A DNA stretch of 64,000 bases from contig JAHRFE010000013.1 of the NCBI GenBank assembly GCA_019084245.1, positions 62,001-126,000 on the forward strand, read 5' to 3'. Under the pieces are notes generated by a model, which worked only from the letters and a program-made list of their open reading frames with translations, was not told where the DNA came from and did not search any database. A program made the translations under genes and the position numbers. The DNA is from Hoeflea sp. (GTDB lineage Bacteria; Pseudomonadota; Alphaproteobacteria; Rhizobiales; Rhizobiaceae). Positions 47,376 to 50,305 of this stretch are shown piece after piece. Within the stretch, counting starts at the first letter, position 1. Every line of letters starts with the position of its first letter.

Positions 47376-48992
47376 ATGACCATCATCCAATCCAAGATCT
47401 CCACCGGCTCACAAGCATTCAAGGACAATTCCGCGCGCATGCATGGGCAGATCGCCGAGATGGCTGAGGCAGCAGAATTGCACGGGCAGGGCGGGCCGGA
47501 AGCGTCGCGCGAGCGCCATGTGGGGCGGGGCAAGCTCTTGCCGCGCGACCGGGTGGCGACGCTGCTCGATCCGGATTCGCCGTTTCTGGAGATCGGGCGC
47601 TTCGCCGCGCACGGGCTTTACGGGGGTGACATCGCCTCGGCGGGCGTGATCGCCGGGATCGGCCGGGTCAGGGGCCGCGACGTGATGGTGGTGTGCAACG
47701 ACGCCACGGTGAAGGGCGGCACCTATTATCCGCTGACGGTGAAGAAGCATCTCCGCGCCCAGGAGATCGCGCTCGAGAACAATCTGCCATGCGTCTATCT
47801 GGTCGATTCGGGCGGCGCCAACCTGCCAAACCAGGACGAGGTGTTCCCGGATCGCGACCATTTCGGCCGGATCTTCTTCAATCAGGCCAATATGAGTGCA
47901 GCAGGAATTGCCCAGATCGCCGTGGTGATGGGCTCGTGCACGGCGGGCGGCGCCTATGTGCCAGCCATGTCTGACGAGACCATCATCGTGCGCGACCAGG
48001 GCACGATCTTCCTCGCCGGTCCGCCGCTGGTCAAGGCCGCCACCGGAGAGGTGGTGAGCGCCGAGGATCTCGGCGGCGGCGATGTGCACACGCGGCTGTC
48101 GGGCGTGGCCGACCATCTGGCCGACAATGACGCCCATGCGCTCGAACTGGCGCGCCAGGCGGTGGCCAATCTCAACAGCCGGGGCAGGGCGGGGCTCTGC
48201 CAGATGGACTGCCTGCCGCCAGAGGATCCGCTCTACGACCCGGCGGAGATCGCCGGCATCATCCCCGCCGACACGCGCCAGCCCTACGACATCCGCGAGG
48301 TGATCGCCCGCATCGTCGACGGCTCGCGGTTTGACGAGTTCAAGGCGCGCTATGGCGCCACCATTGTCTGCGGCTTTGCCCATGTGATGGGCATGCCGGT
48401 GGGCATTATCGCCAACAATGGCGTGCTGTTTTCGGAAAGTGCGGTCAAGGCCGCGCATTTCATCGAGCTGTGCTCCCAGCGCAAGATCCCGCTGGTCTTC
48501 CTGCAGAACATTACCGGCTTCATGGTGGGACAGAAATACGAGGCCGGGGGCATCGCCAAGGACGGCGCCAAGATGGTCACCGCTGTGGCCACCACCGCCG
48601 TGCCGAAGATCACCATGATCATCGGCGGCTCGTTCGGCGCGGGCAATTACGGCATGTGCGGCCGCGCCTATTCGCCCCGCTTCCTGTGGACCTGGCCCAA
48701 CAGCCGCATCTCGGTAATGGGCGGCGAACAGGCGGCGGGCGTGCTCGCCAGCGTCAGGCGCGACGCCATCGAGCGCAAGGGCGGGAGCTGGTCGGCCGAG
48801 GACGAAGCGGAGTTCAAGCGCCCGACCATCGAGATGTTCGAAACGCAGTCGCACCCGCTCTACGCCTCGGCGCGGCTCTGGGACGACGGCATCATCAACC
48901 CGCTGAAGAGCCGTGAGATCCTGGCGCTGAGTCTGTCTGTGGCGCTGAACGCGCCGGTGGGCGAGACGAAATTTGGCGTGTTCAGGATGTGA
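47376..48992 (+). CDS. mccB: Methylcrotonyl-CoA carboxylase, carboxyltransferase (beta) subunit
   Basis: 538 residues. It moves the carboxyl group from biotin to 3-methylcrotonyl-CoA, step 4 of leucine breakdown. Acyl-CoA carboxyltransferase features: [64 protein letters not shown] and [34 protein letters not shown] (a mark of methylcrotonyl- rather than propionyl-CoA carboxylase), and [35 protein letters not shown] in the C-terminal half. The biotin-carrying subunit is encoded at 50302, unusually separated by a nuclease element and a toxin-antitoxin pair. Confidence 0.93.
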
Positions 48993-48996
48993 GGGT

Positions 48997-49083
48997 TAAT
49001 CTCCCCCTGGAGGGGGAGAAAGCGATTTCGGTGTCTTGGACGTGCGCAGCGCGGCCAAGCGCCAGAAATCGCAAGAGAGGGGG
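48997..49083. repeat. Left inverted repeat of the DUF559 element
   Basis: Parts in order: TAA, then TCTCCCCCT-GG-AGGGGGAGA (hairpin, 49000-49019); then GCGATTTC (49022-49029) pairing with GAAATCGC (49065-49072), with CTTGG (49035-49039) pairing with CCAAG (49055-49059) inside; then GCAAGAGAGGGGG (49071-49083). The last part also gives the ribosome-binding site of the DUF559 gene. Two palindromes in one unit of about 90-110 bases recall the rhizobial intergenic mosaic elements (RIME). Confidence 0.75.
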
Positions 49084-49440
49084 ATGGGCATGGCAGACGA
49101 GATGTCCGAGCGGCTGAGGCGCTTCGCCCGCGCGATGCGCAAAGATCCAACCAAGGCGGAGAACATGCTTTGGCAGATGCTGCGGGGACGAAAGCTTGAA
49201 GGGATGAAGTTCAAGCGTCAGGAGCCGATGGGTCCTTACATTGTCGATTTCGTCTGCCATGAGAAGAAACTGATCATTGAAGCCGATGGCGGGCAGCATT
49301 CCGAAAGCGTTTCGGATCTTGAACGCGACAGCTACTTCAGCTCGAGAGGCTACCGGATATTGAGGTTCTGGAATGACGAGATCGAACGCAACGGCGATGG
49401 AGCAGCCCTGCATATCATCAAGGTGGCGACCGATGCGTGA
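49084..49440 (+). CDS. DUF559 (Vsr-like) endonuclease-domain protein
   Basis: 118 residues from the ATG at 49084, with AAGAGAGGGGG immediately upstream; an ATG at 49090 is also possible. The DUF559 family is related to very-short-patch-repair nucleases (PD-(D/E)XK fold). Seen: RRFARAMRKDPTKAENMLWQMLRGRKLEGMKFKRQEPMGPYIVDFVCHEKKLIIEADGGQH, with the Asp of YIVDF and the E-x-D of LIIEADGGQH as likely metal ligands, and RGYRILRFWNDEI. It is the only gene of the palindromic element around it and may act on that element's hairpins, which is inference. Confidence 0.85.
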   Translation: MGMADEMSERLRRFARAMRKDPTKAENMLWQMLRGRKLEGMKFKRQEPMGPYIVDFVCHEKKLIIEADGGQHSESVSDLERDSYFSSRGYRILRFWNDEIERNGDGAALHIIKVATDA

Positions 49441-49450
49441 GCGCGACCTG

Positions 49451-49528
49451 CCCCCTCTCTTGCAAAATCTAACACTTGGCTTCGCCAAGATGTTGATTTT
49501 GCTTTCTCCCCCTCCAAGGGGGAGATTA
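49451..49528. repeat. Right inverted repeat of the DUF559 element
   Basis: Read on the plus strand: CCCCCTCTCTTGC (49451-49463); GCAAAATC (49462-49469) pairing with GATTTTGC (49495-49502), with CTTGGC-TTC-GCCAAG (49475-49489) as inner stem; then TCTCCCCCT-CCA-AGGGGGAGA (49505-49525) and TTA. Reverse-complemented, it has the same parts in the same order as the left repeat; the outer hairpin and inner end are almost identical, while the middle stem differs in bases but keeps its pairing. Confidence 0.75.
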
Positions 49529-49573
49529 GGCGCCGCCGGTGGGCAAGACGAGGTGGAAATGCCAAGACAGAAG

Positions 49574-49592
49574 TGATATCATTTTGATATCA
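49574..49592. promoter_or_regulatory. Tandem TGATATCA palindromes before the second toxin-antitoxin pair
   Basis: The palindrome TGATATCA occurs twice (49574-49581 and 49585-49592), separated by TTT, 15 bases before the antitoxin start. This is the expected form of an operator for a ribbon-helix-helix antitoxin that represses its own promoter. Confidence 0.7.
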
Positions 49593-49607
49593 ACCGGAGT
49601 GAGAGAG

Positions 49608-49868
49608 ATGGGTCAGATCGTGGTGCGGCAATTGGAGGATGCGGTCTTGGAGGCGGTCAAGCTGCGGGCTGCGGCCAACAATCGCTCGACCGAGGCGGAA
49701 GTGCGCGCCATTCTTTCGAGCGCGGTGGGCCTGACATCTCCTGCGGGCTCCCTGAACCCGGACATGCCAAAGCGGTTCAGCGACTTCGTCGGTATTGCGT
49801 CGAAGCGGAGCACCCAGGAAGAAATCGATGCCTATGTCCGGTCGTTGCGTGACGAATGGGAGCGTTGA
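49608..49868 (+). CDS. FitA/Arc-type (ribbon-helix-helix) antitoxin
   Basis: 86 residues from the ATG at 49608, with a GAGTGAGAGAG leader. The N-terminus MGQIVVRQLEDAVLEAVKLRAAANNRSTEAEVRAILSSAV is the FitA/Arc-like DNA-binding domain. The C-terminus (FSDFVGIASKRSTQEEIDAYVRSLRDEWER) should wrap the toxin. The PIN gene starts 2 bases after the stop. Confidence 0.85.
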   Translation: MGQIVVRQLEDAVLEAVKLRAAANNRSTEAEVRAILSSAVGLTSPAGSLNPDMPKRFSDFVGIASKRSTQEEIDAYVRSLRDEWER

Positions 49869-49870
49869 CG

Positions 49871-50305
49871 GTGGCGGAAGCTCGGCGGGTTTATCTTGAT
49901 ACCAATGCCCTCATCGCCGTTCTGGAAAAGGTCGGCGAGTTGGATGGCGCTCAAACGGCGTTTGTCGGCGATATCGATACGGGCGTGCTTGAGGCTGTGA
50001 CCAGTGAACTGACGCTGGCGGAATGCCTTGTCAAACCTATCGCAGACAAGGACGAACCGCTCATTCGCGCCTATCTGTCCCTGCTTTCAGCAGACAGTGA
50101 AATTGTAAGGGTGTCGGAAGTGTCACGCGCGGTTCTCCTTAAGGCGGCGCGGGTGCGGGCCGGGACCGGTGTGAGGTTGCCGGATGCCATTCACATTGCC
50201 ACCGCCACTCTCAGCCGGTGTGATGCCTTCGTCAGCAATGATCGACGGCTCGCTTCGGCAAGTACGATGGACTTCAAACTCTGGAGCGAAATGGGACATC
50301 CATGA
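49871..50305 (+). CDS. vapC: PIN-domain toxin (VapC/FitB-like)
   Basis: 144 residues from a GTG at 49871 with GGAG 8 bases upstream; a TTG at 49865 and an ATG at 49856 are alternatives. All PIN residues are present: Asp in VYLDTNALIAVLE, Glu in ELTLAECLVKP, Asp in VRLPDAIHIATATL and Asp in AFVSNDRRLASAS. The stop overlaps the start of mccA (ATGA), so toxin and carboxylase are translationally coupled, an odd union. Confidence 0.88.
   Translation: MAEARRVYLDTNALIAVLEKVGELDGAQTAFVGDIDTGVLEAVTSELTLAECLVKPIADKDEPLIRAYLSLLSADSEIVRVSEVSRAVLLKAARVRAGTGVRLPDAIHIATATLSRCDAFVSNDRRLASASTMDFKLWSEMGHP

Follow-up and report, generated by a model that had tools for sequence, protein, structure and literature searches.

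The stretch of DNA analysed here, referred to as the window, is 64 kb long and carries a compact element in which a gene encoding a DUF559-family nuclease lies between two inverted copies of a structured repeat (Table 1). The element begins at 48997 and finishes at 49528, with the ends TAATCTCCCCCT and AGGGGGAGATTA. It had been described in an earlier note as a 532-bp unit with hairpins at both ends, and the ends, hairpins and coordinates were all confirmed. Repeats were assigned to types A, B, C, E and F with regular expressions that were built from repeats beside DUF559 genes, in genomes that are related; the two type-A repeats flanking this gene were the only typed units in the window. The encoded protein scored 130.7 bits against the DUF559 model (PF04480), for which the cut-off is 20.6.

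Translation most likely starts at the ATG located 6 nt past the GAGGGGG tail of the left repeat, an alternative ATG being present at 49084, and by eye this tail can act as the ribosome-binding site of the gene. The stop codon is followed by a 10-nt gap before the right repeat. The gene therefore starts at one repeat, with the tail as its candidate ribosome-binding site, and stops just short of the other, as first described.

The carboxyltransferase to the left is presumably mccB-like; the mcc and pcc names used below were assigned from family and context. The FitA-like antitoxin and PIN-domain genes to the right were found in the genus both with and without the DUF559 element. Both type-A DUF559 units of the genome (that in the window and L012:1402-1923) closely precede a biotin-carboxylase-like gene, with the FitA-PIN genes lying between in the window.

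Table 1. Features of the DUF559 element and its neighbours (window coordinates)
Feature	Position	Strand	Remarks
Carboxyltransferase gene (left neighbour, outside the element)	47376..48992	+	Pfam PF01039; used for the empty-site search
Left type-A repeat	48997..49083	+	Tail toward the gene; covariance model match 80.8 bits
Left repeat, hairpin 1	49000-49019
Left repeat, hairpin 2	49022-49072
Left repeat, purine tail	49073-49083		AAGAGAGGGGG
DUF559 nuclease gene	49090..49440	+	PF04480; Pfam E 2.6e-38
Right type-A repeat, inverted	49451..49528	-	Covariance model match 91.9 bits
Right repeat, tail	49451-49461
Right repeat, hairpin 2	49462-49502
Right repeat, hairpin 1	49505-49525
FitA-like antitoxin and PIN-domain genes (neighbours)	49608..50305	+	Pfam PF22513, PF01850

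Structure of the repeats

In each window repeat, hairpin 1 is built from a pyrimidine arm, a short loop and a purine arm; hairpin 2, which is longer, follows it, and the unpaired tail reads AAGAGAGGGGG. Folding as single-stranded DNA gave z scores of -6.6 for the left and -8.2 for the right repeat, a stability reached in 0/200 shuffles. Among 19 type-A repeats, double changes were present at 11 of the 15 pairs of hairpin 2, and 62 double-change cells were counted over the whole structure, compared to 17.3 for shuffled alignments and 2-22 for slid controls; the number of double-changed pairs was less clear-cut (11 compared to 8.5 in shuffled alignments, matched by 18/500 shuffles). Hairpin 1 was near-invariant over these repeats, and for that reason uninformative on covariation; in general, there was little variation within a type in hairpin 1 and the tail. 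The paired substitutions in hairpin 2 indicate that the pairing has been kept rather than the sequence, consistent with the earlier claim that its bases differ between the two ends of the element while the pairing is maintained.

By eye, the tails are composed of purines, for example GAGGGG or GGGGAGGGG. In each of the five types the tail nearly mirrors the purine arm of the hairpin if T is allowed opposite A. A mirror relationship with T opposite A is the letter code of the purine-motif triplex. In 7-nt windows with free offsets, mirror scores were 0.84-1.0 (strict) and 0.96-1.0 (triplex code) compared to 0.59-0.80 for direct alignment. This rule is regarded as a lead only, since every score is raised by the freedom of the offsets and, among types A, B and F, one type fits the tail of another nearly as well as its own. 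In a version of the comparison with shortened tails, type F scored 0.68 for the mirror and 0.77 for the direct alignment. The single-hairpin type E (GGGGAGGGGTTGGGGAGGGG) could, as judged by eye, form a G-quadruplex instead.

DUF559 genes are accompanied by typed repeats

DUF559 was present in 87 of 151 genomes (the genome that carries the window and 150 relatives), all from the Hyphomicrobiales. The window's own genome has five DUF559 genes, each adjoining a repeat of type A (two genes), B (one) or C (two). The 96 loci analysed were automatically fetched ones together with 60 stretches hand-picked among the matches listed, same genus first and then roughly by score, with weaker matches left out. 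A unit was counted if its tail pointed toward the gene and its distance from the domain was no more than 300 nt on the upstream side or 420 nt on the downstream side. On this basis, 92/96 loci had a typed unit: 75 upstream, 57 downstream, 40 on both sides and 4 on neither. The initial detector had found repeats at 83/96 loci, with 14 upstream and 23 downstream in the wrong orientation. Between 100 and 299 bp from the domain there were 2.5-2.7 units per kb; between 400 and 1999 bp the figure was about 0.09, so that density fell about 27-fold past 400 bp. Unlike DUF559, the true Vsr genes (PF03852) of the same genomes had typed repeats at 0/28 loci (30 were returned, of which 2 were too short). 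The DUF559 genes of relatives thus do carry flanking repeats, and the pairing proposed in the earlier note is borne out and is wider than first suggested, extending to several repeat types and, as described below, several phyla.

By eye, several type-B and type-E DUF559 genes were immediately followed by a gene with a GFA-family-like start, in L009, L015, L018, L024, L055, L058 and L064.

Agreement was also seen between repeat type and protein phylogeny. Where both flanks could be typed, they were of the same type in 35/40 loci, compared to a permutation mean of 9.8 and a maximum of 21. Type F was involved in all five disagreements, one of which (L095_4010, C and F) had no mismatch in either call. 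When the type label was placed on a 96-row DUF559 tree, 11 changes were needed compared to 50-62 in 200 shuffles, so that the DUF559 clades match the repeat types, with the proviso that single placements on this tree are unsure because it rests on few columns and has many weak forks.

Repeats with and without the gene across genomes

The 151 genomes were searched with covariance models of types A, B and C, and up to 31 (A), 42 (B) and 39 (C) candidates per genome were scored; counts are among the matches listed, and A and B can cross-match. At E≤1e-8, repeats were found among the matches listed in 73/87 genomes with DUF559, compared to 13/64 without it. Within the family the corresponding figures were 62/64 and 9/27 (Fisher p = 1.5e-10, kinship ignored). 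The distribution of the repeats is therefore not independent of DUF559, yet some genomes without DUF559 carry them: the complete genome G012, of the same genus, had no DUF559 match and had at least 18 A-, 14 B- and 4 C-model matches.

A search for the repeat alone, in pairs and with DUF559 recovered all three arrangements: copies of the same repeats without a gene were dispersed over the genome, some of them single and others in closely spaced inverted pairs. At E≤0.01 the window's own genome contained at least 30 type-A model matches, of which the weak ones may stem from other types through cross-matching. The strongest type-A matches listed (<1e-16) numbered 10; four flank the two type-A DUF559 genes and six lie elsewhere, and four of these six form two close tail-to-tail pairs.

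Sites with and without the element

Three sites were compared between genomes of the genus. In the mccB-mccA gap (17 genomes) the element was present in G000, G013 and G006 (the right gene was not reached in G011), and the other 14, G004 and G005 included, had neither DUF559 nor a typed unit. G004 has a lone palindrome resembling hairpin 1 with AAT/ATT ends, and G005 a decayed one. In the pccB-pccA gap (16 genomes) the element was present in G000, G016, G006 and G002, and the other 12 again lacked both DUF559 and typed units. Inspection by eye identified a decayed repeat in G017, lone palindromes in G003, G012 and G014, and a gap of only 61 bp in G009. In both gaps, typed units were found only where DUF559 was found.

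At the third site (18 genomes) DUF559 was accompanied by type C in G000 and by type E in G011, G016, G010 and G002, so that one site holds two different DUF559/repeat pairs. In G014, G008 and G003 only 4 bp separate the stop codon from the next start codon (by eye); in G006 and G009 the stretch covered contains typed units and no DUF559 (in G009 it stops short of the right gene), and the remaining genomes have other content. Element-free sites are therefore present in relatives at all three loci, and the unit does not sit at the same place throughout. In these comparisons, insertion and loss at each site are indistinguishable. The window unit has inverted repeats at its ends; as for the target-site duplication that accompanies such repeats in DDE-type IS elements and MITEs, no clear one was seen by eye at the window and third sites, where the flanks outside the genes are too diverged for one to be visible, and neither excision nor new insertion of the unit was seen.

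The mccB-mccA gap (window 48993-50301; L104-L119) is a hotspot whose content varies within the genus: FitA-PIN genes, the DUF559 unit and unrelated sequence are gained and lost there. A candidate empty site in Sinorhizobium was rejected, as it proved to be a truncated DUF559 gene: in S. meliloti Ak57 (L340 compared to L345) a deletion has shortened the gene, and its end point lies within hairpin 1 of the type-B repeat on the 3' side.

Occurrence beyond the order and in E. coli

Typed units were present at 70 of the 80 best DUF559 loci listed from named species (57 upstream, 56 downstream, 43 both), and 76/80 had either a typed unit or a long cross inverted repeat. Within 300 bp of the gene, 124 units at these loci faced it and 59 faced away. 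The hosts include Mesorhizobium, Sphingomonas, Pseudoxanthomonas, Helicobacter, Nitrospira, Neisseria gonorrhoeae and Legionella anisa, although some of the 80 are metagenome-assembled bins in which the host may be misassigned; the Legionella anisa and Nitrospira loci have an inverted repeat and no typed unit. Three of the 80 loci were also among the 96. A phylum-level set was typed at 27/28 loci, one of the 28 being among the 80, and on metagenome contigs labelled viral typed units were found for 19/23 of the closest relatives and 0/57 of the more distant ones.

Two further arrangements were noted. On a Sphingomonas plasmid (L344:1941-2426) DUF559 lies between sufB and sufC, again within an operon. 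In Azospirillum argentinense MTCC4035 (L337 compared to L346) the repeat upstream of DUF559 is the site of an insertion of about 1.16 kb.

In E. coli K-12 the DUF559 gene is ycjD, with a degenerate repeat directly 3' and an intact type-F-like repeat further on that points away from the gene. A 43-mer of the intact repeat matched 5377/5426 E. coli genomes, at a median of 19 places, and a 1401-base query spanning ycjD was at least 80% covered in only 3333 of the 5426, which indicates that the repeats outlast the gene. For the zntA-tusA copy, the region was in one piece in 21 of the 25 sampled records and none was apparently repeat-free, a result to be read knowing that the 80% coverage threshold alone would not reveal a 43-base gap; strain-level mobility was thus not seen for this one copy in these 25 records. 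In four strains lacking ycjD, efflux-transport or regulator genes lay beside fabI or sapF and no clean gap was found. The annotation of E. coli ETEC6 (L336:1109-2239) shows an IS1 element interrupting ycjD.

Fold and conservation of the DUF559 protein

The Vsr model PF03852 did not match the window protein at E≤0.001, where only DUF559 and the below-cut-off MTES_1575 were reported, and it had no match in the genome as a whole. An AlphaFold2 model of DUF559 had a mean pLDDT of 89.2. In a Foldseek comparison with the PDB, the predicted fold is nearest to NGO0050 (3hrl, E 3.8e-8) and to the catalytic domain of the homing endonuclease I-Bth0305I (3r3p, 1.3e-4), with Vsr (1vsr) at 0.03. Six residues were invariant in 58 sequences, E24, D53, E64, D66, H70 and D76, with candidate catalytic residues among them. 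The dN/dS ratio was 0.04-0.18 in 21/22 orthologue pairs (one was undefined) and 0.08-0.15 among the three DUF559 orthologues of the window site. Such low values suggest a gene that is useful to the host or vertically kept rather than purely selfish. A role in anti-phage defence was considered, and no PADLOC match was obtained.

Discussion

DUF559 genes and hairpin repeats occur together, the types of the repeats match the clades of the protein, and the whole unit is present at some sites and absent from the same sites in relatives. The reading that we favour, at a probability of about 0.68, is that DUF559 is the cognate nuclease of a REP-like superfamily of repeats, the two forming a two-part system that resembles RAYT in its working and has an unrelated fold. 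Such a system would be widespread and would combine a small PD-(D/E)XK nuclease, similar to Vsr and to the EDxHD homing endonucleases, with matched hairpin repeats. DUF559 would recognise the folded repeat in single-stranded or extruded DNA, probably through the near-invariant purine/pyrimidine hairpin and the GAGGGG tail, between which hairpin 2 would act as a variable spacer. It would then nick or cut the folded repeat, after which host repair or replication would place a copy elsewhere, either of the repeat by itself or of the complete repeat-gene-repeat unit. Its working would in this respect also resemble that of a free-standing homing endonuclease. The tail might also supply the ribosome-binding site in copies like that of the window. 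The earlier proposal had two parts: the pairing of DUF559 with the repeats is supported by the flanks, the distribution and the empty sites, and the processing and spreading of the repeats by the protein itself we infer, as we do its recognition and cutting of them, by analogy with REP/RAYT and homing endonucleases.

Several results were counted against the favoured reading. These were the repeats in 13/64 genomes without the gene, the lack of a visible target-site duplication, the wider spread of the repeat than of ycjD among E. coli genomes, the orientation of the intact K-12 ycjD repeat, the lack of a repeat-free zntA-tusA site in 25 records and the low dN/dS, together with the facts that the repeat types were defined beside DUF559 and that the genomes are related. 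Some of them fit an alternative that we consider unlikely, in which DUF559 acts on the repeats in place and does not move them. The enzyme might resolve hairpins, or possible triplexes or quadruplexes, at replication, or repair mismatches and so homogenise the repeats by gene conversion, with matched flanks arising from tight co-inheritance. A Vsr-like fold, a dN/dS of 0.04-0.18 and the constancy of the one E. coli copy agree with such a role, as does the apparent vertical retention of some DUF559 genes in the genus (the type-E and type-B sets). However, the element-free sites and the two types at one site show that whole units have been gained, lost or replaced, and a pure maintenance enzyme need not adjoin its own substrates at 92/96 loci.

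It is considerably less probable that the repeats serve to control DUF559 itself at the RNA or DNA level, with the tail as ribosome-binding site, the hairpins as operator or attenuator and the other copies in the genome as decoys or leftovers of old gene copies. By eye, an RBS-like GAGGGG tail does lie just before the start in the window and in other copies such as L012, but inverted copies are also found 3' of the gene in 56 of the 80 best named-species loci listed, and gene-less copies exist, some of them close inverted pairs, as in L008. Least credible of all is the movement of the repeats by a RAYT-type Y1 or IS transposase with DUF559 as cargo. REPs elsewhere are linked to RAYTs (PMC3733652), and the window's own genome has one Y1 transposase match. 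Nevertheless, Y1 transposases and repeats were not associated across the 151 genomes, repeats being found in 13/27 Y1-positive and 74/124 Y1-negative genomes (Fisher p = 0.29), and none of five inspected Y1 loci (of 46 matches listed) had a typed repeat; RAYT as mobiliser thus found no support. One kind of cargo across all types and phyla would also be odd.

Beyond the cognate-nuclease reading lies a bolder one, which we put forward tentatively and hold slightly more doubtful than not. DUF559 and mirror-symmetric hairpin repeats may be a second, independent REP-type system, in which a nuclease of the Vsr/EDxHD fold recognises a folded purine-pyrimidine structure and spreads it with or without its own gene. 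The tail might lie as a third strand on the purine arm of hairpin 1 (G.GC, A.AT, T.AT), or type E might form a G-quadruplex, and the system might be found throughout the Pseudomonadota, with YcjD of E. coli K-12 as one member, and in several further phyla. If this is true, a second REP-type system would account for common repeats that have no known mobiliser, and the orphan Whalefall-1 "RNA" considered below would become one of its DNA repeats. More generally, DUF559, a large family of unknown function, gains a likely substrate, and common intergenic hairpin repeats gain a likely enzyme.

Comparison with known systems

The layout has a counterpart in Whalefall-1 (Rfam RF01762), which likewise has a purine/pyrimidine hairpin, a second hairpin and a GGGUGAGG tail. 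Type-F repeats beside DUF559 matched it over its full length at L025:1415-1470, L041:1849-1905 and L043:1917-1973, with scores of 27.0, 25.8 and 22.8 bits, below the Rfam cut-off of 37. No Rfam family reached its gathering score in either of two sets of 12 and 8 loci (L025 being common to both). Matches to microRNA families at repeat loci were taken as chance, and the sub-threshold Whalefall-1 match alone fits the layout. Whalefall-1 has been described as a noncoding RNA from environmental sequences only (PMC2864571); as judged from sequence, it may be one of these DNA repeats.

On the protein side, the predicted fold resembles those of Vsr and of EDxHD homing endonucleases such as I-Bth0305I, and a DUF559 gene has already been placed in the EDxHD family (PMC9403480). 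Unlike those homing endonucleases, the DUF559 gene described here lies outside any intron or intein and has no proven target. Caulobacter VsrA (CCNA_02930) is, like the window protein, a DUF559 protein with a Vsr-like predicted structure and is tied to DNA damage upon loss of cytosine methylation (PMC12907096); the terms "palindromic" and "mobile element" are absent from the main text of that paper. In the open PMC literature (subscription journals and preprints lie outside it), no paper joining DUF559 with palindromic repeats was found by title or start of abstract.

In the alpha-proteobacteria, palindromic repeats apparently without a dedicated transposase have been described, among them the CGTC-tagged REPs (Di Nocera et al. 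2013, PMC3733652), and none or only a few Y1 (RAYT-type) homologues have been reported per genome (PMC6006769). The repeats studied here share with the CGTC-tagged REPs their palindromic nature and prominence in this class and differ in having another tag, in being two-hairpin structures in most types and in going with a nuclease gene. The pairing makes the questions of few Y1 genes and of mobiliser-less repeats in these bacteria testable, also in a laboratory strain, since E. coli K-12 has ycjD.

As in REP/RAYT (TnpA-REP, of the IS200/IS605 superfamily), the palindromic repeats are short and numerous, a nuclease gene lies between inverted copies, the repeat type follows the protein clade, and some gene-less copies form close, REPIN-like inverted pairs. 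The tag differs, by eye being a GAGGGG-type purine tail here and GTAG in REP; because typing requires the purine tail, the counts of typed units say nothing on the GTAG tag. The fold differs as well, that of DUF559 being an endonuclease/Vsr-like fold and that of RAYT the HUH tyrosine (Y1) fold. The Vsr-like nature of DUF559 (PMC12907096) and its EDxHD membership (PMC9403480) were already known, and REP/RAYT is the closest system in how DUF559 and its repeats may work.
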